DNA of 33,648 nt from assembly GCA_015063725.1 (NCBI GenBank), contig SVTP01000027.1:1-33648 (forward strand). The letters are read 5' to 3'. The notes under the pieces are model-generated. The model was not told where the DNA came from. It made no database searches and saw only the letters and a program-made list of their open reading frames with translations. Origin of the DNA: Oscillospiraceae bacterium (GTDB lineage: Bacteria; Bacillota; Clostridia; Oscillospirales; CAG-272). Shown here piece after piece: positions 9,016 to 32,325 of this stretch; the first letter of the stretch is position 1; each line of letters begins with the position of its first letter. The position numbers and the translations under genes were made by a program.

Positions 9016-9190
9016 GTGGGGGAAACTTCTTTCAAGAAGTTTCCCCCACACCCCTTTCAAGAACTTGCTCACAACAGGTATCTAAATAAATTTGTTAGTT
9101 TACTTACGGACAGTCGGCGCGAGGTAAAACCTCGCTTTGGCTGTCGCGAGCTCCCAGGCACCACCGAGACCCTGGTCGCTAAGAAAGTTG
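9016..9190 (+). repeat. structured 3' repeat, copy A
   Basis: Starts 14 bases after the rodA stop. Stem 1 is a 16-bp perfect pairing (9016-9031 with 9034-9049). Stem 2 is GCGAGGT/ACCTCGC (9119-9135). Stem 3 is AGC..CCAGG with CCTGG..GCT (9149-9180). It ends with AAGAAAGTTG. Linkers CAAGAACTTGCT and GACAGTCGGC are shared with other copies. Confidence 0.85.
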
Positions 9191-9206
9191 AGAGAGACAA
9201 AAAAAA

Positions 9207-9234
9207 CGGGCGACCAGTGGTCGCCCGCCTTTAT
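9207..9234 (-). terminator. intrinsic terminator downstream of repeat copy B (and facing copy A)
   Basis: CGGGCGACCA, one base, TGGTCGCCCG. On the minus strand eight T follow, a strong signal ending the lacZ transcript after it has passed through repeat copy B. On the plus strand only CCTTTATTT follows, a weaker signal for rodA. Confidence 0.85.
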
Positions 9235-9306
9235 TTGCGGTATGCGGTTGTTTTTGAGGAGCGGCGGGAGCAAGCCCCCACCCTACTGTGTGAAAATTCA
9301 CATTTT

Positions 9307-9479
9307 CAACTTTCTTAGCGGATGGGGTCTTGGTGGTGCCCAGCCGCTCGCGAGAGCAAAAGCAAGCGTAGGCTTGCGCCGACTGTCTGTTGGTGCATTG
9401 CGGATTTGTTTTGATAATCCCCTTGTCAGCAAGTTCTTGAGGGGGTGTGGGGGAACTTCTCGAAAGAAGTTCCCCCACA
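9307..9479 (-). repeat. structured 3' repeat, copy B
   Basis: Inverted relative to copy A and directed by lacZ; it begins seven bases after the lacZ stop. Stem 1 is a 15-bp pairing (9446-9460 with 9465-9479). Stem 2 is GCAAGC/GCTTGC, stem 3 is AGCGG.TGGG with CCCA.CCGCT. The lacZ terminator lies beyond it, so it should be part of the lacZ 3' UTR. Confidence 0.85.
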
Positions 9480-9486
9480 TAAATCC

Positions 9487-12618
<3,132 letters not shown>

Positions 12619-12639
12619 TCATTTTGCGGTAACAACTCT

Positions 12640-12837: not shown

Positions 12838-14979
12838 TTAACTAATAAGTCCCGCCTCGATGCTGAACAATCCTTTGATGTGCTCGCGCAGGAGCGGATT
12901 TTGGGCAAGATCGGGATCGGTGGCAAGCAGCTCGCGTGCGTCGGCGGCGGCTTCGGTCAGCACCGAAATATCCTCGCCCGCATCGGCAAGACGGAAGGAA
13001 AGTCCGCCGCTCTGCCGCACCATACCGCCCTCGGCGGTTGCCAAAAAGTCACCGGGACCGCGCTGTGCCAGGTCTTGCTCGGCTATACGGTAGCCATCAT
13101 AGGTGGTGCGCATGACCTCAAGACGGTCGCGCGAGGTACGTGAGACGGCTCCGTCGCCGCCCATTACAAGGATGCAATGGGATTTGCGTACACCACGTCC
13201 CACACGTCCGCGCAACTGATGCAGCTGCGAAAGTCCAAAGCGTTCGGCGTTCTCCACGATCATCAGCGCCGCGTTGGGCACGTTGACGCCGACTTCGATA
13301 ACGGTTGTGGAGACCAGCACGTCGACTTCGCCCTCGGCAAAGGCGTGCATAACGGCATCCTTTTCTTTACTCTTCATTCGGCCGTGCAAAAATGCAACAC
13401 GGCACAGAGGGAGTGCTTTTTGCAGCTCCTCTGCAAAGGTGATTGCCGCTTTGAGGGGCGGCTTTTCTTCGCGTGCGAGGAAAATTTCATCAAGGTCGGA
13501 AAGCGTGACCTCTTCGGGCTCTTTTTCCTGCTCCTCGACCGCGGGGCAAACAACGTAGACCTGTCCGCCCTCGTCGACCTGTTTTTGAATGAAAGCATTG
13601 AGCCGCGCGCGGTAGGTCTCGTCGACCACAAAGGTATCAACTCTTTGTCTGCCGGCAGGCATTTCATCAATGCGGGAAATATCAAGCTCCCCATACAGCA
13701 CCAGCGCAAGCGAGCGCGGAATGGGGGTTGCACTCATGACCAACAGGTGTGCGTTTGTGTTCTTTTCGGCAAGCTTTGCGCGCTGACGTGCGCCAAAGCG
13801 GTGTTGCTCGTCGGTAACGACAAGCCCGGGGGCGGCGAACTCCACACCATCGGAAAGCAGCGCGTGTGTGCCGATGACGACCTGCAATCTCTTGCCCTCG
13901 TCCTCGTTTGAAAGCGCGGCTTTGATGCGCTTTTTCTCGGCAGCGGTGGTCGCACCTACCAGAAGCGCGCAGGAGATGCCCATCCCCTCAAAAATGGGAG
14001 CGAGGTCGGCGTAGTGCTGGCGCGCCAGAATTTCGGTGGGCGCCATGAGCGCGGCTTGTCTGCCGTTTTGTACGGCTATGAGCATTGCGGCGGCGGCGCA
14101 TACGGTCTTGCCGCATCCAACGTCACCAACCACAATTCTGCCCATGGGCGTGTTTTTTGCCATATCGCGCGCGATCTCGTCGACCGTTCGTTTTTGCGCA
14201 CCCGTGAGCTCATACGGCAGGGTGGAAACAAGGCGAGAGACATCCCCATTGGGGCACGCGGGGGCGTTCATGGACTTCTCTCTTCTTTGCGACATTGCCG
14301 CGCCGAGTGAGAAACAGAAAAATTCATCATAGACGAGTCGGCGACGCGCGATCAAGAGCGTTTCTGCCGATTCGGGGGTATGGATGTTACGCAATGCGTA
14401 AGAAAGCGTGCAAAGTCCGCGTTTTTGCAGCACGTCTTGCGGAAGCGGATCCTCAATGCTTGCCGCAAGCAGCTCGATCGCCGCCGCAACGTCCTTTGCG
14501 ATCTGCTTGGGCGAGAGCCCCTCGGTCATGCGGTAGACCGCGCACAGGGACGGCAGATCAGCCGACGGTGTCCAGGGCTCTGCCACGGGCGAGGACATGG
14601 TGTATCGCTTGCCCACGCGCTCGACCTTGCCAAAGAAGCGAAAGACCGTGCCCACGCGGAATTGCGATTTGAGGTAGTCCTGATTGAAATAGGTGATCTC
14701 ACAAGAGCCGCTTTCGTCAAACGCGCGGAATTTTAAAAAGGATTTGTGCGAGCGCAGCCTGACCACCTTCGCGTCACTCGCGACCGTTAAGATCATCGAG
14801 CTCTTGCCCTCCGTCCGCGCATCCGCCAACAAAACAACGTCTCCGCGATTTTCGTACGCTCTCGGATAGTGCAACAAAAGGTCGCCCAGCGTCAAAATGC
14901 CGATCTTGGCATAATATTCAGCTCTTGTTTTGCCTACGCCTGCAAGCACCGTTACAGGCGAATTTCTTGTTATGACCAT
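12838..14979 (-). CDS. recG: ATP-dependent DNA helicase RecG
   Basis: Remodels stalled forks and branch migrates Holliday junctions. The 713-aa protein has an N-terminal wedge/OB domain (~60-150), then the superfamily 2 motor. Walker A is GDVGCGKT at 285-292, Walker B DEQH at 390-393, motif III SATPIPR, and motif VI QLRGRVGRG with the RecG-type C-terminal helical hairpin. Length fits the family (~680-700). ATG 14979 has RBS AAAGGAGGTG about seven bases upstream. Its consensus promoter is at 15170-15198, giving a ~180-base 5' UTR that contains the inverted repeat relic G at 15007-15045. Confidence 0.97.
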   Translation of the reverse strand: MVITRNSPVTVLAGVGKTRAEYYAKIGILTLGDLLLHYPRAYENRGDVVLLADARTEGKSSMILTVASDAKVVRLRSHKSFLKFRAFDESGSCEITYFNQDYLKSQFRVGTVFRFFGKVERVGKRYTMSSPVAEPWTPSADLPSLCAVYRMTEGLSPKQIAKDVAAAIELLAASIEDPLPQDVLQKRGLCTLSYALRNIHTPESAETLLIARRRLVYDEFFCFSLGAAMSQRREKSMNAPACPNGDVSRLVSTLPYELTGAQKRTVDEIARDMAKNTPMGRIVVGDVGCGKTVCAAAAMLIAVQNGRQAALMAPTEILARQHYADLAPIFEGMGISCALLVGATTAAEKKRIKAALSNEDEGKRLQVVIGTHALLSDGVEFAAPGLVVTDEQHRFGARQRAKLAEKNTNAHLLVMSATPIPRSLALVLYGELDISRIDEMPAGRQRVDTFVVDETYRARLNAFIQKQVDEGGQVYVVCPAVEEQEKEPEEVTLSDLDEIFLAREEKPPLKAAITFAEELQKALPLCRVAFLHGRMKSKEKDAVMHAFAEGEVDVLVSTTVIEVGVNVPNAALMIVENAERFGLSQLHQLRGRVGRGVRKSHCILVMGGDGAVSRTSRDRLEVMRTTYDGYRIAEQDLAQRGPGDFLATAEGGMVRQSGGLSFRLADAGEDISVLTEAAADARELLATDPDLAQNPLLREHIKGLFSIEAGLIS

Positions 14980-15006: not shown

Positions 15007-15045
15007 TGCGGGAAAACCTTTTTTGAAAAAAAGTGTTTTCCCGCA
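15007..15045 (+). repeat. partial 3' repeat G (stem 1 only)
   Basis: TGCGGGAAAAC pairs with GTTTTCCCGCA around an A/T-rich inner stem, followed by ACCCTTTCCAAAAAAC like the linker of the full copies. Stems 2 and 3 are missing or degraded. It sits antisense in the recG leader. Confidence 0.55.
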
Positions 15046-15169
15046 CCCTTTCCAAAAAACGCTCGTAAAAATATATCAAAAATGAACTTTGAAGTAATTG
15101 TAGAAGCCGGCGTCCTCGACGGTCCGCCATAAAAGAGTTTTACAAACCGTCAATTTTGTCCTTGGTTTA

Positions 15170-18970: not shown

Positions 18971-19322
18971 TTCTTTTTTTAAAACAAAAGTTGTAAATTT
19001 GCATAACAAAAGTATGTTTTTTTCTTTGTCGGGCAAAATATTCTCACATTTGCAAAAAGTTTTTGTTTCTTCTTTTCTTTTCTGTGTAACGGTGTGCGAA
19101 AACGGCAAAATCGCACACTTTTTGTGTCGCGCCTCGCGCAAGATGGTTATCATTGTTACTTATGAAACGCGCGGCGGCGGTACACATTAGTATCAGCAAA
19201 CGGACAAGATACCCAAGTCGGTGCGTGCAAAAACGCTTATCGACGTCACCTCTCTCTGCCCATTGCCTCTCAAAATTTCACGGCGCTCCCTGTGCGCTAT
19301 ATATAAAGGAAAGGTAACTGAA
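18971..19322. other. intergenic region with an orphan hairpin, no gene seen
   Basis: The first 120 bases are AT-rich without a frame. GTGTGCGA (19092-19099) pairs with TCGCACAC (19111-19118) and is followed by TTTTTG on the plus strand, a terminator-like signal with no gene before it. Bases 19119-19322 lead to spoIVB; I could not pick out a sporulation sigma-factor promoter with confidence. Confidence 0.45.
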
Positions 19323-20495: not shown

Positions 20496-20512
20496 AGAGG
20501 GAAGGATGATTT

Positions 20513-20705
20513 GTGGAGAGGGGGAAACTTTCTTGAAAGAAAGTTTCCCCCTCTCCACACCTCTCCCCTTTCCAAGAACGTGCACACAACAAATATCAAA
20601 ATCAAATTTTCAGTATACGAATAGACGGGCGGCGCGAGCGCTCCGCTCGCTTTTGCTCTCGCGATTTTGTAGGGGCCGCCGAGACCCTACAAAATAAGAA
20701 AGTTG
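20513..20705 (+). repeat. structured 3' repeat, copy C
   Basis: Starts 17 bases after the spoIVB stop. Stem 1 is the longest of the family: 22 perfect pairs (20513-20534 with 20537-20558). Stem 2 is GCGAGCG/CGCTCGC (20634-20650). Stem 3 is ATTTTGTAGGG/CCCTACAAAAT (20664-20695), a different sequence from the other copies but still fully paired. Ends AAGAAAGTTG. Confidence 0.85.
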
Positions 20706-20719
20706 TTTTGCATTTGTGC

Positions 20720-20818: not shown

Positions 20819-20840
20819 TTCGTCCCTATCGGTTCACTAT

Positions 20841-20895: not shown

Positions 20896-20924
20896 TTGAC
20901 AACCACCAAAAAATGTGATACAAT
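20896..20924 (+). promoter_or_regulatory. sigma-A promoter of asnS
   Basis: TTGACA (20896-20901), 17 bases, TACAAT (20919-20924) with an extended TGA. Confidence 0.88.
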
Positions 20925-20979
20925 TTATAGAATGAAGGAAGAATTTTTCTCCAATCCTCTTTGTGAAAGGAATTTTAGA

Positions 20980-22359
20980 ATGAAACACGTTGATATTAAG
21001 AAAATATTTGCAAACGTGGATGAATACGTTGGAAAAACCATTGACGTGTGCGGTTGGGTTAGAACCACGCGCGACTCGAAGAACGTTTCGTTTGTTGAAA
21101 TTAATGACGGCTCCTGCACCAACAACCTGCAAATCGTTGTTGACAAGGAGACCATGGATATAAAGGTAAATACCGCTTTTGTAATCGGTTGCGGCGTTAA
21201 GGTGACCGGTGTTATTGTTGCGTCTGAAATGAACAAGTGCGAGATGCAAATGGCAAGCTATCAAATTCTTGGCGAGTGCCCCGCAGACTATCCTCTGCAG
21301 AAGAAGCGTCACAGCCTTGAATTTTTGCGCACCATGCCTCACCTGCGTGTGAGAACCAACACCATTATGAACGTGCAACGCGTTCGTTCCGCTCTGGCTG
21401 CTGCATCCCACCTCTACTTCCAGAGCAACGGCTACACCTACGTTCACACGCCTCTGATCACAGGCAACGACTGTGAGGGCGGCGGTGAGGTCTTCCGCGT
21501 TACCACCCAACCCTGGAACGCAGCTGCCAAGACCGAGGAAGATTACTTTGCAGAGGATTTCTTTGGCAAAAAGGCATTCCTGACGGTTTCCGGTCAGCTT
21601 GAGGGCGAGGTTGCCGCTATGGCGCTTGGCAAGATCTACACCTTTGGTCCTGTTTTCCGCGCCGAGAACTCCAACACCTCCCGTCACGTATCCGAATTCT
21701 GGCAGGTTGAGCCCGAGGTCGCTTTTGCAGAGCTGCCCGACATCATTGAAATCATCGAAGAATATATCAAGTTCATCGTTGGCTACGTTCTTGAGAACTG
21801 CTCCACCGAGATCGACTTCTTTGAGCGTTTCTTCGAAAAGGGACTGCGCCAAAAGCTTGAGCTTTTGACCAACTCGGATTTCCAAGTCATCGAGTACACC
21901 GACGCAATCGAGCTGCTGAAAAAGGCAGAGGGCGCAAACTTTGCATTCGCTCCCGAGTGGGGTGCTGAATTGCAGAGCGAGCACGAGCGTTGGCTGACCG
22001 AGCAGATCTTCAAAAAGCCCGTATTCGTTATCAACTACCCCAAGGATATCAAGTCCTTCTATATGAAGCAGAACGATGACGGCAAGACCGTTGCGGCTAC
22101 CGACCTTCTCGTTCCCGGCATTGGTGAGCTGGTTGGCTGCAGCGAAAGAGAAGCAAACTACGACAAGCTCGTAGCCGCTATGGAAGCGCGCGGCATGGAC
22201 GTTTCGGCTTACTCTCAATACCTCGATTTGAGAAAGTACGGTTCTGTTCCCCACAGCGGCTTTGGCATTGGCTTTGACCGTTTGGTTATGTACGTCACCG
22301 GTGTTTCCAACATCAGAGACGTTCTCCTCTACCCCAGAACACCTAAGGAATTGAAGTAA
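20980..22359 (+). CDS. asnS: asparaginyl-tRNA synthetase
   Basis: Charges tRNA-Asn with asparagine. A 459-aa class IIb synthetase: N-terminal OB-fold anticodon-binding domain (~1-105, VCGWVRTTRDSKNVSFVEINDG), then the catalytic core with motif 2 (YTFGPVFRAENSNTSRHVSEFWQVEPE) and motif 3 (GFGIGFDRLVMY) near the C-terminus. FWQVEPE is the asparagine-type form. ATG 20980 has GAAAGGA upstream and lies 55 bases after the -10; the upstream in-frame extension translates repeat C and the pyrimidine repeat and is rejected. Single-gene unit with terminator. Confidence 0.97.
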   Translation: MKHVDIKKIFANVDEYVGKTIDVCGWVRTTRDSKNVSFVEINDGSCTNNLQIVVDKETMDIKVNTAFVIGCGVKVTGVIVASEMNKCEMQMASYQILGECPADYPLQKKRHSLEFLRTMPHLRVRTNTIMNVQRVRSALAAASHLYFQSNGYTYVHTPLITGNDCEGGGEVFRVTTQPWNAAAKTEEDYFAEDFFGKKAFLTVSGQLEGEVAAMALGKIYTFGPVFRAENSNTSRHVSEFWQVEPEVAFAELPDIIEIIEEYIKFIVGYVLENCSTEIDFFERFFEKGLRQKLELLTNSDFQVIEYTDAIELLKKAEGANFAFAPEWGAELQSEHERWLTEQIFKKPVFVINYPKDIKSFYMKQNDDGKTVAATDLLVPGIGELVGCSEREANYDKLVAAMEARGMDVSAYSQYLDLRKYGSVPHSGFGIGFDRLVMYVTGVSNIRDVLLYPRTPKELK

Positions 22360-22365
22360 AATGAT

Positions 22366-22400
22366 AAAGCCACCTGCATCAGCGGGTGGCTTTTGTTATT
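22366..22400 (+). terminator. intrinsic terminator of asnS
   Basis: AAAGCCACC (22366-22374) pairs with GGTGGCTTT (22385-22393), then a T-rich tail. Confidence 0.85.
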
Positions 22401-22472
22401 TTATACTTGTGCGTTACAAGCGGGCGACCGTTCGTTTTCGGAATGCCGAGGACGTCGCACAGCCATATCAAA

Positions 22473-22646
22473 CAACTCTCTTAGCGGATAGGGTTAGTGG
22501 TCCCTAGCCGCTCGCGAAAGCAAAAGCAAGCGTACCGCTTGCGCCGACTGTCTGTTAGGTCATTGTGGATTTGTTTTGACAGACCCTTTGTCAGCAAGTT
22601 CTTGAGGGTGCAGGGGGGGACTTTTCTCGAAAAGTTCCCCCCTGCA
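22473..22646 (-). repeat. structured 3' repeat, copy D
   Basis: Directed by the HELGH protease gene, six bases after its stop. Stem 1 is TGCAGGGG.. with CCCCTGCA (18 pairs, one G-T, 22609-22646): the base differs from the GTGG/CCAC of A, B, E and F. Stem 2 is GCAAGC/GCTTGC, stem 3 is AGCGG.TAGGG with CCCTA.CCGCT. Confidence 0.85.
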
Positions 22647-22652
22647 TTCTCT

Positions 22653-23456
22653 TTAAAATATCACCTTCAACCAGCGCCAAAGGTAGACAAGCAGCGCGAT
22701 GAGCACCCACGCCAGCGAGAAGGCAATGGTAATGCAGAAGATGGAGAGGACAGGCAGATTGAAGCGCATCAGTCCGTCAACAATGCCGCCTTGCAATCCA
22801 AGGAGCATGGTAACGGCGGCAAAGATGGCGACGATGCCTGTGTACATCAGGAGCGCCTTGAAGCAGCCCTTCAGGTCGGCGAAGCTCAGGGTGATGTGTT
22901 GCGAGACCGAGAGGATGATCAGCATACCGATAACGGAACGCAGGGCGTCCTCTTCGAATTTTTCAAACAGAGAAAACAGCAGCGAAAATCCGCCCGAGAG
23001 CATCTCGCGCACACCGGCACCCGAGGCGACCATCTCGCGCGAGGTGTCCAGATACGCCTGCCACTGATTTGGGAAGCAAAGCGTGAGCACCAGAACCATA
23101 ACGCCAAGACCGCTGAAAATGGGTCCAAAGCTGATGAACAAATCTCCAAACACCGCCCAAAGATTTTTGCGGTTGTAGGTGTGTTCAACGTAACCGAGCG
23201 TGCGGGAGCGTCCCTTTGGGAATTGCAACAGCTTCATATCGGTGATGCGGTGCGCAAAGGGGATGCACATCAGGGCGTGCCCCAACTCGTGCACGGGCGT
23301 ACCCACCACCGAGGATGCGTAAAACACCGGTGTTGCAGAGTCGCCCACCAAAAACATAAACACCTGTCGCGCAAACCACGCAACAAGACCGCAAACCGCC
23401 ATAACGCCAAGCGTAAGGCCGAGCAGCTGTCCTATATAAATCAAATATTGGTCCAT
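22653..23456 (-). CDS. polytopic membrane protein with HELGH metalloprotease motif
   Basis: A 267-aa protein with about six hydrophobic segments (8-38, 100-130, 150-170, 180-200, 205-225, 235-260). HELGH at 56-60 matches the zinc-binding HExxH of M50-type (site-2-like) and related membrane proteases, preceded by a short hydrophobic segment (FYASSVVGTPV). A second Asp ligand motif like the M50 LDG is not obvious, so activity is unproven. ATG 23456 has AAAGGAAC upstream; earlier in-frame codons lie in the end of the upstream gene. It starts 24 bases after the MFS-GH2 stop and shares its operon. Confidence 0.8.
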   Translation of the reverse strand: MDQYLIYIGQLLGLTLGVMAVCGLVAWFARQVFMFLVGDSATPVFYASSVVGTPVHELGHALMCIPFAHRITDMKLLQFPKGRSRTLGYVEHTYNRKNLWAVFGDLFISFGPIFSGLGVMVLVLTLCFPNQWQAYLDTSREMVASGAGVREMLSGGFSLLFSLFEKFEEDALRSVIGMLIILSVSQHITLSFADLKGCFKALLMYTGIVAIFAAVTMLLGLQGGIVDGLMRFNLPVLSIFCITIAFSLAWVLIALLVYLWRWLKVIF

Positions 23457-23479
23457 AGAAAGTTCCTTTCTTACGATTT

Positions 23480-26400
23480 TTAAAACTGACTTTCGAACGC
23501 ATCGTTCAGCCTTTGGGCGAGGGCTTGCATACGCTCGGGGGTAACCTTGCACACGCGACGGTCATAGGTCACAAGTCCGTTGGTTTCGTCCTCAACGTCG
23601 CTGACCTGTGTGAGAACCGTGGCACAAAGTCCGCCCTCGCGAATAGAGGGAACGATCTCATCGCTATAGAGCTTTTCCAAAGCATCCGAGAATGCCTCGG
23701 GGCTCTCAAGCGTGCTATACCCGTAGTTTTGGTCGAGGTTGAAGGAGTGCCCCTCAATTTTGCAGGAGTAGCCGCCAAACTCGGAGAGCACCAAGGGGAG
23801 CTTGCGGCTCTTGAGCTTGACACGGCGGAAATAGATGTGCTCACTTTGCACGTCGCTGCGCGGTGTTTTGAACCAGCCCGATGCCGTATCAAAAATGCGG
23901 GTGGAGTCACACGCTTTGAGTTGGTCATATACGCGAGATGCACCGAAATACTGTCCCCAACCCTCGTTGAAGATGGTGTAGTAGCACACAGAAGGGTGAT
24001 TGTAAAGCAAGTCGATCACAGCGCGTGAGCCGTCCTCAAAGTCGGCGCGGCGGCGACGGCTCACCGTGTGGAAAAATCCCCATCTCCACCCTGCGGTGGG
24101 GAGTGCGGTATCAAAAATGAAGCTGTAATGACCGCTGTTCATCATATCTTGAAAAACGATCATGCCCTGCTTGTCGCACTCATAGTAAAAGACGTCGGGC
24201 TCGATTTTGATGTGCTTGCGCAGCATATGAAAGCCGAGCTCTTTCATTTTGGAAATATCATAGCGATATCCCTCGGGTGTGGCGGGGGTGTAGATGCCGT
24301 CGCTGAAGTATCCTTGGTCAAGAAGCCCATGGAAGAAATAGGGCTTGCCGTTCAGGCACAGGCGCGGCTTGCCCGCAACCATCTTGGATTCGATGGTACG
24401 CAGAGCAAAATAAGAGTCGATCTGATCCTTGCCGTCCGCAAGGGTAAAGGTGTAAAGGTGCGGGGTTTCGGGGGACCATAGGATCGGGTTTTCGATCTCG
24501 ATCTCAATACGGTTGCCCTCATATGTGTAAACCTTATCGCCCTCGGGCAGATGGAGCGTGAGCGTTTTTTGCGCGTTGCCGCCCAAGGTTTCAACCGTTA
24601 CAGAGGACAGCGTGGGCGTAACGTAGAGCGAGGAAATATAATGCTCGGGAACGCCCTCAAGCCATACAGGCTGCCAAATGCCGCTGATGGGCGTGTACCA
24701 CATCCCACCGCGCTTTTTGCGCTGCTTACCGTATGCCAATTGAATGTCCAATTTGTCGGTCACGCGCACACGCAAGCGGTTCTCCCCTGCTCTTGCGGCG
24801 TTTGTAACGTCAAAGGTAAAGGGCAAATATCCGCCAACGTGCTTGCCAAGATAGGTATCGTTGAGCCACACCTCGGCGATCTGGTCGACTGCTCCAAAGT
24901 GCAACAAAACTCTTTCTTTCGTAAAATTTTCTGTCAGAGAAAAGGTCTTTTCATAAACGTATTGCTCGCCTGCTTCCAGCGTGCGGCAAACACCCGAAAG
25001 TCTTGTTTCGGGAGAAAACGGAACGACGATTTCGGAGATAGGTGTTACAACTCCTTTTTTCTCAACACTCAAATTCCAAGCGCCGCAAAGGGAAAAGTAG
25101 GAGTCACGCTTCATTTGCGGGCGGGGGTATTCTTTCGCCCACTCGTCTCCCTTTGCGGCATCCTCAAAAGGGGTTGTCAGGTCTTGTGTGCGAGGCGTTT
25201 TTTTAGGACGCAAAAGCACCAAGAGAATGGTCAGCACCGCCGCCACAACAAGTGCGGCAAGGAAGATATTTTCATTGGGCAAAAAGGACTCGGTTCCGTC
25301 GTTGTTGAGGACCTTTTCGGCGTTGGCAAGAACGCGCTTGCCAATTTCAGGGCCAACAACACCGGGAATCAGGACCTGCGCACAAATACGCGCGCCTTGC
25401 AGCATACCCGCTTTGCTGTCAGGGGTGAGGTCGCGGATCTTTGCACCAAACACCGCCATACCGCAAAGGTAGCCACACATCATAAAGAGCGAGCCGATAA
25501 ACACGAGGATTGTCCCCTTGAAGAAATACAACAAAACGTATCCCGTCATCAGGGATGCCAGCGCGATAAAGCCGGAAAAGTCAAAACCCTTTTTGTCATA
25601 GACCTTGCCCCAAAGCGCGGTTGCAACCGACGCCAGAATAATGGCGGGCGCCATAATAAAGACGTAATCGGTCATGCCCAGCGACTTTTCATAATAGATG
25701 ATGAGGTAAGGCATGAAGATTTGAATGGAGATGTTAAAGAGGATAAATGCGGCAAGATAAAAATACAAGGATTTGTTTCCCTTGACGGTTGAGGGACGGA
25801 AGCTATAAATGACGTTTTGCCAATATCCCGTTTCGGATTTGACACACTTAACGGGGTCTTTGATCAGGAAAATGCCAAGAACACCGATGGCGATAACAAC
25901 AACACCGATGATGGCAAAGATCCAAACCCAGCTCTGCGCCAATGCCAAATCTAAGCCCGAGAACTGAACGCCGCCAAACACAACAAGGATGGCGATCAGC
26001 GGCATCATTGCGTTGATGCCCTCGGCAGAACCGCGGTTGGTGTTGTCGGTGCTTTCGGTCAACCATGCGTTGAATGCCGCGTCATTTGCGGAAGAGCCGA
26101 AAAAGGTCATTACGCAGTCAAAAATGATAACCAAAGAGATCGCAACGGCGGACGAGCTGATTGTCAGCCAAGAACCTGCGTTGGATTGGTCAACGCGAAT
26201 GAAGCAGAAGCCGAGGATGGAAATACCCCACAGGATGTAACCCGCGCACATAAAAAGCTTTCTTTTGCCTACGCGGTCGGAAAGCGCACCGATGAGGATG
26301 GTGGTCAGCGCGGCAGAAATGGCACTCGCCGCAACCATGGTGGAAATATCGCTGGCCGTTGCGCGGAACATATTGTAGATGAACACGTTGAGGTACATAT

Positions 26401-26482
26401 TCTCCACGACCCACGCCACCTGACCGATGAGGCTGAACAAGGTCAGCGCACACCAAAAACGAGGGGAAAGCTTGGTTTTCAT
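23480..26482 (-). CDS. MFS transporter fused to a GH2 glycoside hydrolase
   Basis: One uninterrupted 1000-aa frame. Residues 1-~425 are an MFS transporter with about 12 membrane helices and the loop motif GALSDRVGKRK at 65-75. From ~450 a complete GH2 enzyme follows: jelly-roll sugar-binding domain (PRPQMKRDSYFSLCGAWN at 453-470, SGIWQPVWLE), Ig-like domain, then a TIM barrel with acid/base Glu840 (FNEGWGQ) and nucleophile Glu901 (LSEFGGY). Both catalytic Glu are present. With 12 helices the hydrolase would face the cytoplasm, so imported beta-glycosides could be cut at the exit of the carrier (inference). ATG 26482 has AGGAGG six bases upstream. First gene of a two-gene operon. Confidence 0.93.
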   Translation of the reverse strand: MKTKLSPRFWCALTLFSLIGQVAWVVENMYLNVFIYNMFRATASDISTMVAASAISAALTTILIGALSDRVGKRKLFMCAGYILWGISILGFCFIRVDQSNAGSWLTISSSAVAISLVIIFDCVMTFFGSSANDAAFNAWLTESTDNTNRGSAEGINAMMPLIAILVVFGGVQFSGLDLALAQSWVWIFAIIGVVVIAIGVLGIFLIKDPVKCVKSETGYWQNVIYSFRPSTVKGNKSLYFYLAAFILFNISIQIFMPYLIIYYEKSLGMTDYVFIMAPAIILASVATALWGKVYDKKGFDFSGFIALASLMTGYVLLYFFKGTILVFIGSLFMMCGYLCGMAVFGAKIRDLTPDSKAGMLQGARICAQVLIPGVVGPEIGKRVLANAEKVLNNDGTESFLPNENIFLAALVVAAVLTILLVLLRPKKTPRTQDLTTPFEDAAKGDEWAKEYPRPQMKRDSYFSLCGAWNLSVEKKGVVTPISEIVVPFSPETRLSGVCRTLEAGEQYVYEKTFSLTENFTKERVLLHFGAVDQIAEVWLNDTYLGKHVGGYLPFTFDVTNAARAGENRLRVRVTDKLDIQLAYGKQRKKRGGMWYTPISGIWQPVWLEGVPEHYISSLYVTPTLSSVTVETLGGNAQKTLTLHLPEGDKVYTYEGNRIEIEIENPILWSPETPHLYTFTLADGKDQIDSYFALRTIESKMVAGKPRLCLNGKPYFFHGLLDQGYFSDGIYTPATPEGYRYDISKMKELGFHMLRKHIKIEPDVFYYECDKQGMIVFQDMMNSGHYSFIFDTALPTAGWRWGFFHTVSRRRRADFEDGSRAVIDLLYNHPSVCYYTIFNEGWGQYFGASRVYDQLKACDSTRIFDTASGWFKTPRSDVQSEHIYFRRVKLKSRKLPLVLSEFGGYSCKIEGHSFNLDQNYGYSTLESPEAFSDALEKLYSDEIVPSIREGGLCATVLTQVSDVEDETNGLVTYDRRVCKVTPERMQALAQRLNDAFESQF

Positions 26483-26519
26483 AAGAGCCTCCTGTTTGTA
26501 ATAAATTGTCTTCCCTTTT

Positions 26520-26548
26520 ATTATAGCATATTTGGGGATGGTTTGCAA
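26520..26548 (-). promoter_or_regulatory. sigma-A promoter of the MFS-GH2 operon
   Basis: Minus strand TTGCAA (26543-26548), 17 bases, TATAAT (26520-26525) with an extended TGC. Confidence 0.82.
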
Positions 26549-26580
26549 GAGGGAGAAAGAAAGTGCAGAGTGCAGAGTTG
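26549..26580 (-). repeat. CTGCACT pyrimidine-rich repeat before a promoter
   Basis: Minus strand ACTCTGCACTCTGCACT then TTCTTTCTCCCTC, abutting the -35. Counterpart of 20841-20895. Confidence 0.55.
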
Positions 26581-26678
26581 TAAGAGACTTGCAGGAGGGG
26601 AGATTCTTGGCACCTCGAAAATGAAGGAATGTCGTACACAAAGGCGAGAGGCGAAACGAACGACCATATCAAGCAAAA

Positions 26679-26926
26679 CCACTGTATGTCATCCTGAGCG
26701 AAGTCGAACTTCTGCGGGTTGAGCGCAAGCGAACAAGCAGAAGCGCAAAACGCGAGGCGGTTTGCGGGATCTCGTAACGAGTTTTGGTGGCTTGCCAACG
26801 GGATGTTACATCAATACAAAAAGCCACCAAGATTTTGAACGAGATCCCTGCGGCGCTACGCGCCTTGCTTTCACCTCGTTCTTCACTCGGTGAAAGTTCG
26901 ACTTCGCTCAGGATGACATATAGTGG
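26679..26926. repeat. 248-bp foldback element with TGTCATCCTGAGCG ends
   Basis: Terminal arms of 33 bases (26679-26711 and 26894-26926) are inverted copies with one or two mismatches and contain TGTCATCCTGAGCGAAG, a motif known from many bacterial intergenic regions. Inside are two further inverted pairs: GGGATCTCGT with ACGAGATCCC (26766-26848) and TTGGTGGCTT with AAGCCACCAA (26784-26830). No frame. Looks like a MITE or large foldback element. A single end is seen again at 32740-32754. Confidence 0.75.
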
Positions 26927-27017
26927 GTTATTTAGTTTTAATAATTTTATGTTACAATCGATTATTTATCTACAAATAAAAACATTTCATCTATCGTCAA
27001 AAAACGCCATTATCCGC

Positions 27018-27045
27018 TTGCAATGTTGGAGTTTTGTGGTATAAT
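27018..27045 (+). promoter_or_regulatory. sigma-A promoter of the small lipoprotein gene
   Basis: TTGCAA (27018-27023), 16 bases, TATAAT (27040-27045) with an extended TGG. Confidence 0.75.
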
Positions 27046-27085
27046 GGAAATAGCAAACCAAACATTTTTCAACAAGGGGGAACAT

Positions 27086-27517
27086 ATGAAAAACAAAACT
27101 TCAAAAACAATCGTTGCAATCTCGCTATCGGCACTTTTACTCATTGCGATAATATCTTGCGCCGCAAAATTCGTTTACCTTTCCCCTTCCTGTTATTCGG
27201 ATAACGACACCCTGACAAACCAAGAAAATTACTTTATTAAAAAAATCGCATTGGAATGTGTAGAGGCGCGGCTTTCGGTTTTTGCGGATTCAAACAGCGG
27301 TATATATGATTCTATTCAACTTGACAACGACCAAAACAATCGCAAACACGTTTTTGTTTTTATCAACAGCGATTTTATGGATAGCGTCCGAAAAGAGGAT
27401 GACAAATATATCGTCCGCGTACAAACCTATGGAATGGAATCGGTATCATCCGATTGTATATATGAAATTCATCTATCAAACGAATTTGATGTAACCTTTT
27501 TCGGTCTCGATCCGTAA
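27086..27517 (+). CDS. small putative lipoprotein, unknown function
   Basis: A 143-aa exported protein with no family I recognise. Residues 1-24 form a signal (KNKTSK, hydrophobic run, AIISC), making Cys25 the likely lipid site; if not processed there, it is an N-terminal anchor. The mature part has a helix with Cys/Glu residues (FIKKIALECVEARL) and a beta-rich C-terminus (HVFVFINSDF, YIVRVQTYGM, CIYEIHLSNEF). ATG 27086 has AAGGGGG five bases upstream. AT-rich compared with its neighbours, and flanked by a foldback element and a terminator, it has the look of an accessory gene. Confidence 0.78.
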   Translation: MKNKTSKTIVAISLSALLLIAIISCAAKFVYLSPSCYSDNDTLTNQENYFIKKIALECVEARLSVFADSNSGIYDSIQLDNDQNNRKHVFVFINSDFMDSVRKEDDKYIVRVQTYGMESVSSDCIYEIHLSNEFDVTFFGLDP

Positions 27518-27534
27518 TCAAAACAACATACTCT

Positions 27535-27563
27535 AACGAACACTCTTGCAGGTGTTCGTTTTT
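27535..27563 (+). terminator. intrinsic terminator of the small lipoprotein gene
   Basis: AACGAACAC (27535-27543) pairs with GTGTTCGTT (27552-27560), followed by T. Confidence 0.88.
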
Positions 27564-27577
27564 GTATTTCTTTCTCC

Positions 27578-27606
27578 TTGACAACCCCTTTTGTTTGTGG
27601 TACAAT
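27578..27606 (+). promoter_or_regulatory. sigma-A promoter of the VOC-ymdB operon
   Basis: TTGACA (27578-27583), 17 bases, TACAAT (27601-27606) with an extended TGG. Confidence 0.88.
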
Positions 27607-27666
27607 AACACTGATGACTTGGCGCGGTTGGAAAAACCAAATTCTCGCGCTCAAAAGGAGACTGTT

Positions 27667-28068
27667 ATGAAACGTTTAACAAAGGGCGTTCACCACATTG
27701 CCATCAAGTGTGCGGGGCGCGAGCATTTTGATAAAACCATCCACTTTTATCACACCCTTCTGGGGATGCCCATCGTGCGCGAATGGCAGACCAACGAGGG
27801 GATGCCCTGTGCTATGGTCGACATTGGCGGTGGCATGATGGAGATCTTCTCCAACGCCGAGGACACACTTCCCCAAGGCACGCTTCGCCATCTTGCATTC
27901 GCTACTGATAGCACCGACGATTGCATCGAAACCGTCCGCGAAGCGGGCTACGAAATCACAATGGAGCCCACCGACATCTGCATTGCATCCAATCCCCCCT
28001 ACCCCGCGCGCATCGGCTTTTGTATTGGTCCCGTAGGCGAGGAGATCGAATTCTTCCAAGAAAAATAA
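27667..28068 (+). CDS. VOC-superfamily (glyoxalase-fold) protein
   Basis: A 133-aa cytoplasmic protein with two beta-alpha-beta-beta-beta halves of the vicinal-oxygen-chelate fold. The four positions that bind metal in glyoxalase I-like enzymes are filled: His10 (VHHIAI), Glu59 (MMEIFS), His75 (RHLAFA) and Glu128 (EEIEFF). This favours a metal-dependent lyase, isomerase or dioxygenase; the substrate is unknown. ATG 27667 has AAAAGGAG seven bases upstream. It shares a promoter with ymdB, which begins 33 bases after its stop. Confidence 0.88.
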   Translation: MKRLTKGVHHIAIKCAGREHFDKTIHFYHTLLGMPIVREWQTNEGMPCAMVDIGGGMMEIFSNAEDTLPQGTLRHLAFATDSTDDCIETVREAGYEITMEPTDICIASNPPYPARIGFCIGPVGEEIEFFQEK

Positions 28069-28101
28069 AACACAAAACAGACAAAATAGAAAGGCACATC
28101 T

Positions 28102-28875
28102 ATGCGTATTCTTGCCCTTGGCGACGTTGTTGGACAGGTCGCCATCGAATATCTTGCGGACAAGCTCTGGGCGTTCCGCTCGAAAGAAAAAATTGATTTT
28201 TGCGTTGCAAACGGAGAGAACGCCACCGAGATCCGCGGCATTTCTGCCGCCGATGCCGAAGCTCTGCTCGGGACGGGCGTTGACCTGATCACGCTTGGCA
28301 ACCACGCCTTTGGCATGAAGGATATTTATGCCTATCTCGACGCCAACGAGCACTCTATCATTCGCCCTGCCAACTACCCCACCGACGCGCCGGGCGTTGG
28401 CTACACCGTTTGCGACGTCAACGGCTGGAGGGTGCTTTGCATCAACGCAAGCGGACGTGTTTACCTCGATCCGCTCGCCTCTCCCTTTGATACTGTCGAC
28501 CGCATCCTCGAGCGCGAGGACGGGCGTTATGACCTCGCTCTGCTCGACATTCACGCCGAAGCCACCAGCGAAAAGCTTGCCATCGGTCGCTATTTTGACG
28601 GGCGCATTCAGGTGATGTTCGGCACGCACACGCACGTTCCCACCGCCGACGAGCAGATCCTGCCCCACGGCTCGGGCTACATTACCGACCTCGGTATGTG
28701 CGGCCCTGTTGACGGCATCCTCGGCACCGATGCCGATGCTGTCATTCACCGCTTCCGCACCCTCATGCCCACGCGCTTCTCCGTCGCCTCGGGTGACGTC
28801 CGCGCACAAGGTGTCATTTTTGACGTTGACGAGGACGCGAGAAAAGTACGGAGCGTTAAGAGAGTGGTGTTTTGA
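28102..28875 (+). CDS. ymdB: YmdB-family metallophosphoesterase
   Basis: The family hydrolyses 2',3'-cyclic nucleotides and affects biofilm and motility choices in Bacillus. At 257 aa it has the expected length. Dinuclear metal ligands are visible in order: Asp8 (GDVVG), NGEN at 37-40, GNHAF at 66-70, DIHAEATSEK near 147, and GTHTHVPTAD near 173. Start ATG 28102 has GAAAGGC upstream. It is second in an operon with the VOC gene. In many Firmicutes ymdB follows rny; here rny lies 4 kb away on the other strand. The transcript runs into repeat copy E. Confidence 0.94.
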   Translation: MRILALGDVVGQVAIEYLADKLWAFRSKEKIDFCVANGENATEIRGISAADAEALLGTGVDLITLGNHAFGMKDIYAYLDANEHSIIRPANYPTDAPGVGYTVCDVNGWRVLCINASGRVYLDPLASPFDTVDRILEREDGRYDLALLDIHAEATSEKLAIGRYFDGRIQVMFGTHTHVPTADEQILPHGSGYITDLGMCGPVDGILGTDADAVIHRFRTLMPTRFSVASGDVRAQGVIFDVDEDARKVRSVKRVVF

Positions 28876-28892
28876 TAAGATTGCGGGTTATT

Positions 28893-29062
28893 GTGGGGGA
28901 ACTTTTTAGAAAAAGTTCCCCCACCCCCCCTCAAAAACTTTCGCACAAAAATAATCAAAATAAATTTGTTAGTACACGAACAGACAGTCGGCGCGAGCGC
29001 AACGCTCGCTTTTGCTCTCGCGAGCGATTAGGGACCACTAACCCTACTCGCTAAGAAAGTTG
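28893..29062 (+). repeat. structured 3' repeat, copy E
   Basis: Starts 17 bases after the ymdB stop. Stem 1 is 15 perfect pairs (28893-28907 with 28910-28924). Stem 2 is GCGAGCG/CGCTCGC, stem 3 is AGCG.TTAGGG with CCCTA.CGCT. Ends AAGAAAGTTG. The remaining intergenic bases to 29198 show no gene and no clear promoter. Confidence 0.85.
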
Positions 29063-29198
29063 TTTGTTATTGGCTAACGACAAAAAGCAACCAAAACATT
29101 ACCGCCACCCGTGATATGTGAGATAGAAAACCTGTTTATTATGGTATGGTTGGTTTTATCCATTAGCCGATCATCTTGTCACAAAGAAAGGGGTTTTT

Positions 29199-30161
29199 AT
29201 GGTAAGAAAAATTTTACAGGTCCTTTTTACGGCAATATTTTGCCTGAGTATTGCCGTTGGTGTCATCAGCGCCTTTTCCTATCCTCATGACAACGAGGCA
29301 TACGAACAGCTACAACCCGAAACATTTACACACGAGCCCATCGACTCGGTTTACATCAAGGAAGATTTGCAGCAAATTTACGTTTGCTACAATGCGGCAT
29401 CTTATGTCAATGTATATACCGTTGACGGCGAATTTCTCTGGGCGATCTCAACCCCCGATTTTAGCAACAACACGTATTTTGAAATTCTGGATGACAATCT
29501 GGTTGTTTACGATTCGGAAATCGCCTACCTCTACAACGCGAAAAACGGTGCTTTTGTCGCCAAACGAAACGCCGAAGAGTTGGAGTTGGCATACTACTTT
29601 GACTCCGGCGACGAGTCACTGCCCGAGCCTGCCCCGGGAGATTTTTGTTTTGATGGACACCAAGTATACAAAATAGAAGCGGACGGCAGTGAAACGGTGC
29701 TTGTAGAAAGGCCGTTCTGGCACACCCTTGTTGACCCCGTTTTTTGCATCCCGCTCACCTTTCTCGCGGCTTTGGGCATCGGTGTTCTGACCTTTTCAAA
29801 AGTGTTTCAAGAATACCGTTTTGTAAAAAGAAAATATACAACAGATAGGCAAGGCGTTGTTGTCGGTCACGCACGTGCAAGATTTATTCAAAAGTATTTT
29901 CGCGTAGCATCCATCGTCTACCTGGCGTTTGCGGTTTTGGATGTTCTTTTAGGCATCTTCCTTGACGGCATCCTCACCATTGGCATTCTCCCCCTCGCGC
30001 TACACTTCATTGTATCCAATGCTGTTTTTGCCAATATGATGGAGCGCATTCCCTTGACAGAAGACGAACAAAAAATTATGAATTTTTGGAACACCGCGCA
30101 ATTCGCCTCTTTTATCATTGCCTTTTTCTCGGTTATTGTTGCCACAGCGTTTGCCACCTAA
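29199..30161 (+). CDS. multi-TM protein with an extracytoplasmic beta domain, unknown function
   Basis: A 320-aa protein I cannot assign. Residues 5-26 form a signal or first TM helix. Residues ~27-180 are probably outside the membrane and beta-rich, with strand repeats like VYTVDGEFLWAIS and LVVYDSEIAYLYNAKNG that recall single blades of beta-propellers. Then come a TM at ~184-205, a basic cytoplasmic loop (~206-232) and three more hydrophobic segments (~235-255, 258-280, 297-318). ATG 29199 has AAAGGGG five bases upstream. The GH92 gene begins 27 bases after its stop, so the two are probably co-transcribed; a link to sugar sensing is only inferred. Confidence 0.8.
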   Translation: MVRKILQVLFTAIFCLSIAVGVISAFSYPHDNEAYEQLQPETFTHEPIDSVYIKEDLQQIYVCYNAASYVNVYTVDGEFLWAISTPDFSNNTYFEILDDNLVVYDSEIAYLYNAKNGAFVAKRNAEELELAYYFDSGDESLPEPAPGDFCFDGHQVYKIEADGSETVLVERPFWHTLVDPVFCIPLTFLAALGIGVLTFSKVFQEYRFVKRKYTTDRQGVVVGHARARFIQKYFRVASIVYLAFAVLDVLLGIFLDGILTIGILPLALHFIVSNAVFANMMERIPLTEDEQKIMNFWNTAQFASFIIAFFSVIVATAFAT

Positions 30162-30188
30162 AATACTCTTTTATATAAGGAGCTCACT

Positions 30189-32144
30189 ATGAAATACATC
30201 CCCTATGTGAACATAAAACAAGGCTCGGCGTCGATCTGCCGATTTTCCAACGGCAACACGTTGCCCTTGGTGCAGCGTCCGTTTGGCATGGCACCTTTCT
30301 GCCTGCAATCGGACGCGGGCGGCGGTCGCTGGTTCTTTCACCCCGATCACCCTTGCACCGAGGGCATCAGACTGACGCATCAGCCCAGCCCTTGGCTTGG
30401 CGAGTACGCCACTTTTTTGATGATTCCGCAAAACGACGTCATCTCCAACAACGCCCCCGGTGCGTGGTCGGGCTACCGTCCGCGTGAGTCGGTCTTTCGC
30501 CCCGACTACCTCAAGGTGACCTTTTTGCGCTCCAACTGCACCTTTGAGCTCACCCCCACCGATCGCGGCGGCGCGATCCGCCTGACCTTCCACGATGACC
30601 GCGCGTCGGTTCTCTCCTTCCTGCCCGTAACGGGCAACTACGCCTACCGCTACGATGCCGCCACCCACACGCTCATTGGCACAAACGATGCCACCGGCTC
30701 GGGTGTGGCTGTCAATTTTAAGTCCTACCTTGCCGTCAAGTTCCTTGGCGACGTGGTCGACGATGAAAAGGTTATCATTCAAAGCGGCAAGCACACCACA
30801 AACACGCACATTCCTCTGACAAGTCGCGTGGTCGAGGCGCGCATTGGCTTCTCCTACATCAGCGAGGAAATGGCACTTGCGACCATCAAACGCGAGTGTG
30901 GCGACCGCTCCTTTGAGGAGATCCGTCAGGAGAGCGAGGACGTTTGGGAAGAGATGCTCCACCGCGTTGAGGTCACCACCGAGACCGAGGACGAGATGCG
31001 CACCTTTTATTCATGCTTGTGGCGCACCTTCCTCTTTCCGCAGGCGGCTTACGAGTTGGATGCCGACGGCAAGCCTGTGCATTACGTTCCTGCCACGGGC
31101 GAGGTACGCCCCGGCTACCGCTACACAAACAACGGCTTTTGGGACACCAGCCGCACCGTCTACCCTCTCTTTACGCTCACAGCGCGCGAGGAGTTTGCCA
31201 AGATGCTTGAGGGGTTTGTTGGCGACTACGAGGAATCCGGGTGGCTCCCCCGTTGGCTCGGGCTTGGCGAGATCGGTTGCATGCCCAGCACCCTGATTGA
31301 CAGTGTGATCGCTTGTGCCGCCGTCAACGGCATTGGCTCTCGCGAGGTACTCGAAAAGGCGCTTGAGGGTATGCTTCATCACGCAAACAACGAGAGCGAA
31401 AATCCCATTTACGGTCGCAACGGCGCGCTCTCCTATTGCAAATACGGCTACGTTCCGCGGAACGAGCACCGCGAGTCGGTCAACCTCACGCTCGATGCCG
31501 CCTACGGCGACTGGTGCATTGCCACCGTTGCAAAGGTCCTTGGGCGTGATGACATTGTTGAGGAATACATGGCACGCTCCAAAAACTATCAAAATCTGTT
31601 TGATCCCGCCACCGGCTTTATGCGCGGCCGCGACACCGAGGGCAAGATGGCCGAAAACTTTGACCCCTGCACCTGGGGCGGCGAGTACACCGAGGGCTCT
31701 GCTTGGCAGAACTCGATGTTCGTGCCGCATGACGTCGACGGTCTTGCCGCGCTCTACGGTGGAAAAGAAAAGTTCCTTGAAAAGCTCGACGAGCTGTTTG
31801 CAACTCCCCCTCGCTACCGCGTATTCGGCTACGGTAACGAAATTCACGAGATGACCGAGATGGCTGCCGCCGACTTTGGTCAGTGCGCCATCTCCAATCA
31901 GCCGTCCTTCCATCTCCCCTTCCTCTATGCCGCCCTCGGCGAGCAGGAAAAGACCGATTATTGGGTGACAAAGCTCTGCCGCGAGGCATTCTCCTACCGC
32001 GACGACGGCTTCCCCGGCGACGAGGACAACGGCACCACCGCCGCTTGGTATGTCCTCGCTTCCCTCGGCTTCTACCCACTCTGCCCCGGCCACAAAGAGA
32101 TGATCAAATGCAAGCAACAGGTGAAGAGTTATAAGATTAGATAA
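30189..32144 (+). CDS. GH92 alpha-mannosidase, C-terminally shortened
   Basis: Exo-acting alpha-mannosidase family that uses calcium. Of 651 aa, residues ~1-230 form the beta-sandwich domain (GTDGHT-like elements are weak; RPFGMAPFCLQSD at 30-42), then the (alpha/alpha)6 barrel with NGFWDTSRT at 315-323, HEMTEM near 553, ISNQPSFH at 568-575 and GDEDNGTTAAWYVLASLGFYP at 610-630. The last carries the catalytic-base Asp/Glu positions by family analogy. No signal peptide, so it acts in the cytoplasm. The family normally runs 70-100 residues further; this protein ends 21 residues after GFYP with a lysine-rich tail, 12 bases before repeat copy F. Start has AAGGAG six bases upstream. Confidence 0.9.
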   Translation: MKYIPYVNIKQGSASICRFSNGNTLPLVQRPFGMAPFCLQSDAGGGRWFFHPDHPCTEGIRLTHQPSPWLGEYATFLMIPQNDVISNNAPGAWSGYRPRESVFRPDYLKVTFLRSNCTFELTPTDRGGAIRLTFHDDRASVLSFLPVTGNYAYRYDAATHTLIGTNDATGSGVAVNFKSYLAVKFLGDVVDDEKVIIQSGKHTTNTHIPLTSRVVEARIGFSYISEEMALATIKRECGDRSFEEIRQESEDVWEEMLHRVEVTTETEDEMRTFYSCLWRTFLFPQAAYELDADGKPVHYVPATGEVRPGYRYTNNGFWDTSRTVYPLFTLTAREEFAKMLEGFVGDYEESGWLPRWLGLGEIGCMPSTLIDSVIACAAVNGIGSREVLEKALEGMLHHANNESENPIYGRNGALSYCKYGYVPRNEHRESVNLTLDAAYGDWCIATVAKVLGRDDIVEEYMARSKNYQNLFDPATGFMRGRDTEGKMAENFDPCTWGGEYTEGSAWQNSMFVPHDVDGLAALYGGKEKFLEKLDELFATPPRYRVFGYGNEIHEMTEMAAADFGQCAISNQPSFHLPFLYAALGEQEKTDYWVTKLCREAFSYRDDGFPGDEDNGTTAAWYVLASLGFYPLCPGHKEMIKCKQQVKSYKIR

Positions 32145-32156
32145 GGACGCGGTTTT

Positions 32157-32325
32157 GTGGGGGAACTTCTTATAAGAAGTTCCCCCACACCCCCTCAAGA
32201 ATTTGCTGACAAGGATCTATCAAAAGAAATCCATAGTGCACTAACAGACAGTCGGCGCGAGGTGAAACCTCGCTTTGGCTCTCGCGAGCGGCTAGGGACC
32301 ACTAACCCTATCCGCTAGGAAAGTT
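32157..32325 (+). repeat. structured 3' repeat, copy F
   Basis: Starts 12 bases after the GH92 stop. Stem 1 is a perfect 32-base palindrome (32157-32188). Stem 2 is GCGAGG/CCTCGC, stem 3 is AGCGG.TAGGG with CCCTA.CCGCT. Ends with AGGAAAGTTG, 18 bases before the next gene. Confidence 0.87.

Follow-up and report, generated by a model that had tools for sequence, protein, structure and literature searches.

Structured repeats in the window

A structured repeat of ~170 nt, in which a first stem and a linker precede a body of paired stems and conserved loop motifs (stems 2 and 3), occurs repeatedly in the 33,648-nt contig C25 (hereafter the window) of the draft genome of an Oscillospiraceae bacterium (G000; 1.85 Mb, 38 contigs, 80% complete). 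Six full copies (A to F) had been predicted in the initial annotation and are confirmed here at the positions listed below, with scores of 140-192 bits against a covariance model (R1) derived from 25 copies in this genome, including copies A, B, D, E and F and excluding copy C. Copies A, C, E and F are located on the forward strand, with B and D on the reverse strand. Unit U in the list denotes the combination of stem 1 and linker.

9016..9190 (+): copy A, full element, 14 nt past the stop codon of an FtsW/RodA gene (open reading frame (ORF) 7751-9001)
9307..9479 (-): copy B, full element, 7-8 nt past the stop codon of a beta-galactosidase gene (9487-12576, -)
15007..15140 (+): U unit, linker and decayed sequence, immediately 5′ of the recG start (12838-14979, -)
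20513..20705 (+): copy C, full element with a longer stem 1
22473..22646 (-): copy D, full element, 6-9 nt past the stop codon of a 299-aa ORF (22653-23552, -), the range depending on where the hairpin base is placed
28893..29062 (+): copy E, full element, 17 nt past the YmdB stop codon (28102-28875)
28893..28924 (+): stem 1 of copy E, the head hairpin of unit U
28925..28946 (+): linker of copy E, with an A/G tract coupled to the stem-1 arm and an AACTTTC motif that can pair with GAAAGTT at the 3′ end
28993..29009 (+): stem 2 of copy E, followed by TTTTGCT and terminator-like by a simple consensus
29023..29052 (+): stem 3 of copy E with its loop; the sister species carries another allele at the orthologous position
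32157..32326 (+): copy F, full element, 12 nt past the stop codon of a GH92 gene (30189-32144) and 17 nt ahead of the next ORF (32344)
32765..32886 (-): U unit with linker and no recognisable body

The hairpin of copy C begins, according to the model, at position 20519, 23 nt past the SpoIVB stop codon (19221-20495). Two further sites had been described as relics of stem 1. Both are present, but neither consists of stem 1 alone, as both score against R1 as U plus linker and decayed sequence (15008-15140 (+), 47.8 bits; 32765-32885 (-), 62.3 bits).

The repeat has no counterpart in Rfam at threshold, as had been supposed. At the curated threshold, a scan of the window recovers two tRNAs only, while a permissive scan of copy E returns four weak matches, all far under their respective thresholds. 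A coding function is rejected, given that the body landmark, recognizable in 43 of 46 copies, falls in all three phases (19, 11 and 13 copies) and many copies contain in-frame stop codons.

Fold and covariation of the stems

Covariation is evident in all three stems beyond the level of shuffled and slid controls, both among 25 full copies and among 44 bodies, in agreement with the earlier prediction. The copies are ~77% alike per column. In the 25 full copies, pairing holds in 97.3% of 697 cells, and both sides are changed in 16 of the 28 pairs, compared with 8.0 in shuffled alignments (0/500 as high) and 2-7 when the alignment is slid by 1-3 columns. Further pair types number 25, a value reached by 33/500 shuffles. 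Among the 44 bodies, 92.3% of 703 cells are paired, against 26-41% in the slid controls, and double changes are found in 103 cells (28.5 shuffled; 9-26 slid), with further pair types (21) not exceeding those of the shuffles (22.7). The folding z-score of copies E and F is -6.6. One alignment of copies (A5) was made without L117:2200-2300, L016, L092 and L098.

The body may furthermore be enclosed by a closing helix, formed between AACTTTC in the linker and GAAAGTT at the 3′ end, in which 89.7% of 175 cells are paired (28-46% slid). Double changes occur in 2/7 of its pairs, as many as are reached by 18/500 shuffles, and the helix is present in the fold of copy E, while the RNAalifold consensus of the 25 copies is without it in such form. 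Support for the closing helix is modest.

A further coupling is observed between a stem-1 arm and the linker, the latter being nearly a direct repeat of the 3′ arm. A stem-1 arm with CTTCTT is accompanied by AAGAA in the linker and an arm with a T run by AAAA(A), in 105 of the 106 parsed copies from two species. Among 29 sequences of 23 genomes, the number of paired cells and the score exceed those of all shuffles, and two of the five pairs are double-changed, a number that 104/500 shuffles also reach. Slippage could explain the coupling, as could selection on an alternative pairing. Across genomes the tie is weaker in formal counts, and the alternative pairing was not upheld, given how often shuffles reach its double changes and that the linker could be no more than a copy of the 3′ arm.

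Position relative to neighbouring genes

The copies are typically located a short distance behind a gene. Among the 36 copies with an ortholog in the sister species Oscillospiraceae SIG623 (G151; draft genome, ~74% complete), for which the reading frame was set by an excess of third-position substitutions, a stop codon on the same strand lies 7-33 nt ahead of the hairpin in 28 and 7-23 nt ahead in 27. By a simple longest-ORF rule, a stop is located within 6-23 nt in 38 of 63 copies. A similar arrangement is found for U units outside G000, where an open frame on the same strand ends within 60 nt of 24/33 units, and one on the other side for 7/33. These 33 units derive from 35 rows, less seven which are not U-like, together with five loci read out separately, and one of them is from the same genus. 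Some hairpin ends instead lie next to the start of a divergent gene, as with recG at position 15007. Where Pfam provides a name, the neighbouring genes (FtsW, beta-galactosidase, SpoIVB, YmdB and GH92) are unrelated.

Of the 60 copies in G000 with the landmark, 33 have TTTT and 17 have TTTG directly after stem 2. Stem 1 lacks a following U tract. A simple terminator scan of positions 20000-33648 flags copies C, D and E and does not flag F; copies A and B lie beyond the scanned stretch. In other genomes, a role for U as the companion of a downstream intrinsic terminator is not supported, with terminator-like hairpins found behind 4/33 units compared with 2.0 in sequences shuffled by blocks of two bases, in a scan that allows no bulges.

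Family size and distribution of the two layers

The suggestion that the repeat exists in tens of copies is borne out by the covariance-model search of G000, with about 60 copies in the 1.85 Mb draft. R1 yields at least 138 matches at E<=1e-3, a lower bound given that 150 of 922 first-look candidates were scored, and 60 of these reach 100 bits. Many of the lower-scoring matches represent the palindromic stem 1 on the opposite strand or U units, including both sites in the window originally described as relics. The family is a composite of two layers, unit U and the body, and the former also occurs in other genera, where it stands by itself or in inverted pairs.

The two layers differ in their distribution. 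A covariance model of U (R3), built on 29 sequences from 23 genomes, matches 22 of 37 genomes in the family, with 139 matches in G000 and up to 98 in the others. Across the order, with at most 18 candidates scored per genome, R3 matches 58 of 297 genomes, of which 38 fall outside the family. For many of the latter the best E is only 1e-4 to 1e-7, and just one locus (L291) was read out. By a simple pattern, supplemented with the reading of some loci, 7/33 of the U units in other genomes form two inverted hairpin units around a spacer. The element in the window comprises U and the short 3′ complement GAAAGTT only, without a second head hairpin. U looks like a widespread 3′-end feature of this order.

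The body, by comparison, is found by its own covariance model (R2) in nine of 35 genomes of the genus, namely in G000 (62 matches), G151 (60), G159 (17) and G166 (11), along with five further genomes with 3-12 weak matches each. When 395 genomes of the family were searched with ten candidates per genome and strict filters, R2 matched four, all from the same genus. A search of 84,980 species genomes with the body pattern recovered 16 stretches, all in the draft genome of Oscillospiraceae SIG623. The restriction of the body to one genus is provisional, since U loci L052, L053, L054 and L075 in other genera show, by eye, a stem-3-like end which R2 does not report.

Carriage by phages or plasmids was rejected, in that a blastn search of phage and plasmid collections with copy F gave no match, nor did a search of viral contigs with the body pattern. 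No mention of the U unit was found in a limited search of the literature.

Orthologous sites in related genomes

Orthologs of 36 of the 63 copies in G000, as determined from the upstream flank (76-96% identity), could be identified among the 57 copies in G151. The true orthologous share is probably higher, given the incompleteness of the latter genome. At the ymdB site (copy E) the whole element is present in G151, while G166 carries a degenerate U without body. Among the other 17 loci of the genus parsed at this site, L124 and L129 contain a U-like hairpin with linker, a few others show hairpin remnants, and the rest have ordinary terminators or nothing recognisable, all judged by eye. At the FtsW site (copy A) a hairpin without linker or body is kept in G151 (L293), whereas U, linker and a truncated body, of which only the start remains, are kept in G166 (L294). 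No element is present at this site in three more distant genomes. The orthologs of the gene preceding copy D are not followed by an element in G151, and by an ordinary terminator-like hairpin, as judged by eye, in G166.

Apparent exchange of hairpins between copies

The modules of the repeat differ markedly in the extent to which they are retained at orthologous sites. The module analysis started from 120 elements of the two genomes and left out 12 whose length fell outside 165-205 nt, and 30 of the 36 ortholog pairs could be measured module by module and 28 parsed for stem 3. Three loci (L019, L104 and L106) have two candidate partners in G151, of which the first was used. Modules S1, L1 and L2 are more alike in the 30 ortholog pairs than in random cross-species pairs (permutation p = 0.0002 for each), as is J1 (p = 0.003), while the similarity of stem 2 is weak (p = 0.11). 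Stem 3 shows a similarity of 0.683, compared with 0.681 in random cross-species pairs (p = 0.46), and no orthologous signal is detected in J2 (p = 0.26), the stem-3 loop (p = 0.49) or the 3′ end (p = 0.19).

The stem-3 allele differs in 26 of the 28 pairs, at a median of 7 of 20 nt. The G151 allele of these differing pairs is present at another locus in G000 in 23/26 cases, and the G000 allele elsewhere in G151 in 21/26. Overall, 47 of 55 copies in G151 carry a stem-3 allele that is also found in G000, and 11 of the 30 distinct alleles are common to both species. The most common alleles have an internal mismatch that is constant across many copies in the two species, as for AGCGGCTAGG/CCTATCCGCT (29 copies) and AGCTCCCAGG/CCTGGTCGCT (8 copies). 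Such constancy speaks for copying from locus to locus and against a simple correction of palindromes. In several ortholog pairs essentially a single hairpin is changed and most of the element is near-identical: stem 2 in window_9307/L207 and L022/L245, and stem 3 in L009/L211 and, together with an insert of 75 nt, in L108/L249. Stem 3 shows no linkage to S1, L1, L2, J1 and S2 in either genome (r -0.04 to 0.06). S1 is linked to L1 (r about 0.5 in both genomes) and, in G000 only, stem 3 is linked to its loop (r 0.27), the loop to the 3′ end (0.47) and J2 to the loop (0.24). A few other module pairs reach r 0.08-0.17 at p below 0.05.

The sharing of stem-3 alleles between loci, combined with the loss of orthologous similarity, suggests that hairpins are exchanged between copies. 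Part of the covariation thus appears to reflect the exchange of ready-made hairpins, rather than independent compensatory mutation. The initial annotation had taken covariation to indicate selection on a folded RNA instead of a mobile repeat, an argument that is not supported as it stands, since stems 2 and 3 are often replaced at orthologous loci by alleles found elsewhere. Covariation among paralogs is by itself no proof of selection on RNA where hairpins are apparently exchanged between the copies, and a host role is better argued from position and from retention at orthologous sites.

A second repeat (TAGCGAAGCGGCG..AATGACAGTCCGGTGGACTGTCAGAAC..GAGCCGCAGCGAGACCC; ~75 nt or more) occupies an identical place within the stem-3 loop in eight otherwise differing copies, namely L093, L094, L096, L108, L027:2027-2278, L100, L103 and L097:958-1131. 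It is also found in flanking repeats (L051 and the L026 flank), and one copy carries a compensated hairpin variant.

Origin and role of the repeat

The repeat is a genuine family that lacks an Rfam entry; its general kind is known and its mode of evolution unusual. We consider it probable that it is a dispersed, non-autonomous and non-coding repeat of gene 3′ regions, related in kind to repetitive extragenic palindromic (REP) doublets forming hairpins (REPINs), bacterial interspersed mosaic elements (BIMEs) and miniature inverted-repeat transposable elements (MITEs), which is built in two layers and undergoes ectopic exchange at the scale of single hairpins. The first layer is U, in which a G-rich hairpin of ~12-18 bp precedes CCCCTTCAAAAACTTTC, placed mostly a few nucleotides past stop codons, singly or as inverted pairs. 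The second is the body, located behind U in one clade of one genus and probably closed by pairing of AACTTTC in the linker with GAAAGTT at the 3′ end. On transcription of the gene, the element would belong to the 3′ region of the mRNA, where its strong hairpins may hold the 3′ end or help to stop transcription; stem 1 could protect or pause, and stem 2 with TTTT or TTTG may be a weak terminator. The loci and the 5′ parts are inherited largely vertically, and stem 3 appears to be replaced from a pool of common alleles, for which short-patch, non-reciprocal ectopic recombination at extruded DNA hairpins appears the likeliest route. Of this reading, the structure, copy number, position, orthology and sharing of alleles are demonstrated here, and transcription, a role at the 3′ end, the mechanism of exchange and the original mode of spread are inferred.

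Several observations weigh against this reading. The reading frame is on the other strand in 7 of the 36 copies with an ortholog and no stop could be placed in one, while 25/63 copies fall outside 6-23 nt by the longest-ORF rule. Presence and absence can be contrasted at the FtsW and copy D sites, but no base-exact insertion point or empty site was found, nor was a target duplication established or a consistent flank duplication seen by eye. The transposase domain Y1_Tnp has no match in G000, G151, G166 and G159 (drafts 69-80% complete; other recombinases and reverse transcriptases were not searched). Furthermore, four of the 26 differing stem-3 pairs differ by only 1-2 of 20 nt, and clear replacement of a single hairpin in a retained body is seen in only ~7 pairs, comprising six with L2 >=0.85 and J1 >=0.9 along with L108/L249. 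Elsewhere only stem 1 and linker, or little, are retained, and loss and regain of the whole body is possible. The downstream flank is often unalignable between orthologous copies, and the assignment of another locus as donor follows from allele sharing, part of which a small number of states allowed under selection could mimic.

It is unlikely, but deserves weighing, that the repeat is instead a cis-acting 3′-untranslated region (UTR) RNA of the host, such as a terminator, attenuator or mRNA stabiliser, whose fold is selected gene by gene with few allowed stem states. The position behind stop codons, the paired stems and conserved loop motifs and the retention of elements at orthologous sites all agree with such a role. 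So do the T-rich stretches behind stem 2, the terminator-like appearance of copies C, D and E, and the terminator-like hairpin that takes the place of copy D in G166. Against it, the Pfam-matched neighbouring genes are unrelated, and stem-3 alleles are common to many loci with the same class-specific mismatch and are without orthologous memory. Moreover, eight copies carry a large insert in the stem-3 region, and in other genomes the sequence behind U shows no enrichment of terminator-like hairpins. More speculative, and rather doubtful, is a variant in which some 60 3′-UTR RNA elements draw on one hairpin pool that a dedicated, structure-guided process reshuffles between loci, so that every gene would retain an element at its 3′ end while the hairpin alleles turn over, and the elements would be self-renewing combinatorial cassettes and not a decaying repeat.

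Template switching during replication of quasi-palindromes could make or repair stems, such that covariation would arise by mutation, with neither selection on RNA nor exchange. The confinement of multi-base, double-arm changes to single hairpins would fit this mechanism, which has a published precedent in RNA genes (PMC8794818). It would be expected to produce perfect arms, yet one and the same internal mismatch persists in the commonest alleles, in many copies of both species, and identical 20-nt alleles recur at unrelated loci and across both species, so that we regard it as improbable. Mis-joining of similar repeats in short-read drafts, leading to false hairpin swaps, is very improbable: both genomes are fragmented drafts, with a coverage near 2-3x for SIG623, but the limited similarity of the copies, the clean orthology of the upstream flanks of swapped copies and the length of the conserved stretches beside the swapped stem 3 (~10-13 nt), which falls below usual assembler k-mers, all speak against it.

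If the exchange of hairpins as proposed in the preferred reading is real, it weakens the usual inference from covariation among paralogs to a selected RNA structure, and provides a natural system in which very short-patch recombination between dispersed bacterial hairpins could be measured.

Comparison with known repeat families

Group IIC introns are located behind terminator-like hairpins in sense orientation. The repeat described here differs in being only ~170 nt in size, and no group II intron family is found in the window at the Rfam threshold. The BOX elements of Streptococcus pneumoniae are modular, structured intergenic repeats, from which the present repeat differs, by general description only, in its modules, host and copy arrangement. 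In terms of MITE-type ends, the two ends of the element differ apart from the short complement between linker and 3′ end.

A closer likeness is seen with the REP/REPIN/BIME systems associated with REP-associated tyrosine transposases (RAYTs; TnpA-REP), which PMC3116915 describes as dispersed intergenic hairpins, single or in inverted pairs with a variable spacer, present in many copies near gene ends. Here, too, dispersed intergenic hairpins are found in many copies near gene ends, with U in other genomes seen singly or in inverted pairs. Unlike in these systems, no Y1/RAYT gene was found in the drafts of the four most body-rich genomes and there is no GTAG/CGTC tag, with the hairpin bases in 25 copies being, by eye, mostly GTGG, GCGG and GCAG, along with ATGG and TCGG. 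The units are 60-175 nt in length and are characterized by a two-hairpin body, conserved loops and apparent exchange of hairpins between loci. Elsewhere in the genus Y1_Tnp is matched in six of 35 genomes, five of them over the cut-off, and one such locus (L156) is presumably, from its appearance by eye, an ordinary IS200-type gene. A RAYT or IS200 element as the mover was rejected, given that Y1 was not found in the incomplete drafts of the body-rich genomes, nor U at eight Y1 loci by a strict pattern scan.

The bcr1-type MITE-like repeats of the Bacillus cereus group are likewise ~150-170 bp in length, occur in tens of copies in intergenic regions, have a predicted RNA fold and are partly located in UTRs and partly transcribed (PMC2267715; PMC3446304). 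The comparison is one of these traits alone, and the present repeat differs in its tight position behind stop codons and its modular, exchanging structure.

Additional repeats in the window and its relatives

Further repeats were observed in the vicinity of the elements. A dispersed GCGGACCGTCGAGGACGCCGGTCCCTACA-like repeat often occurs next to them, as downstream of L016, L042, L043, L045 and L049 and at window positions 15100-15129, and GGGCGACCANTGGTCGCCC palindromes are found, for example, at positions 9208-9226. Extra copies of the last 20-46 codons only of spoIVB, the gene preceding copy C, are present in G159:C25, G147:C21, G160:C58, G157:C131 and others. They share a contig with the full gene or lie on others, as would be expected if mobile elements inserted at the 3′ end of spoIVB and brought a replacement end with them. 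Finally, positions 452-534 and 1597-1679 of the window form an 83-nt direct repeat (82% identical) that includes an ATG, a ribosome-binding site and a stretch resembling a promoter, apparently from two genes whose control regions are duplicated.

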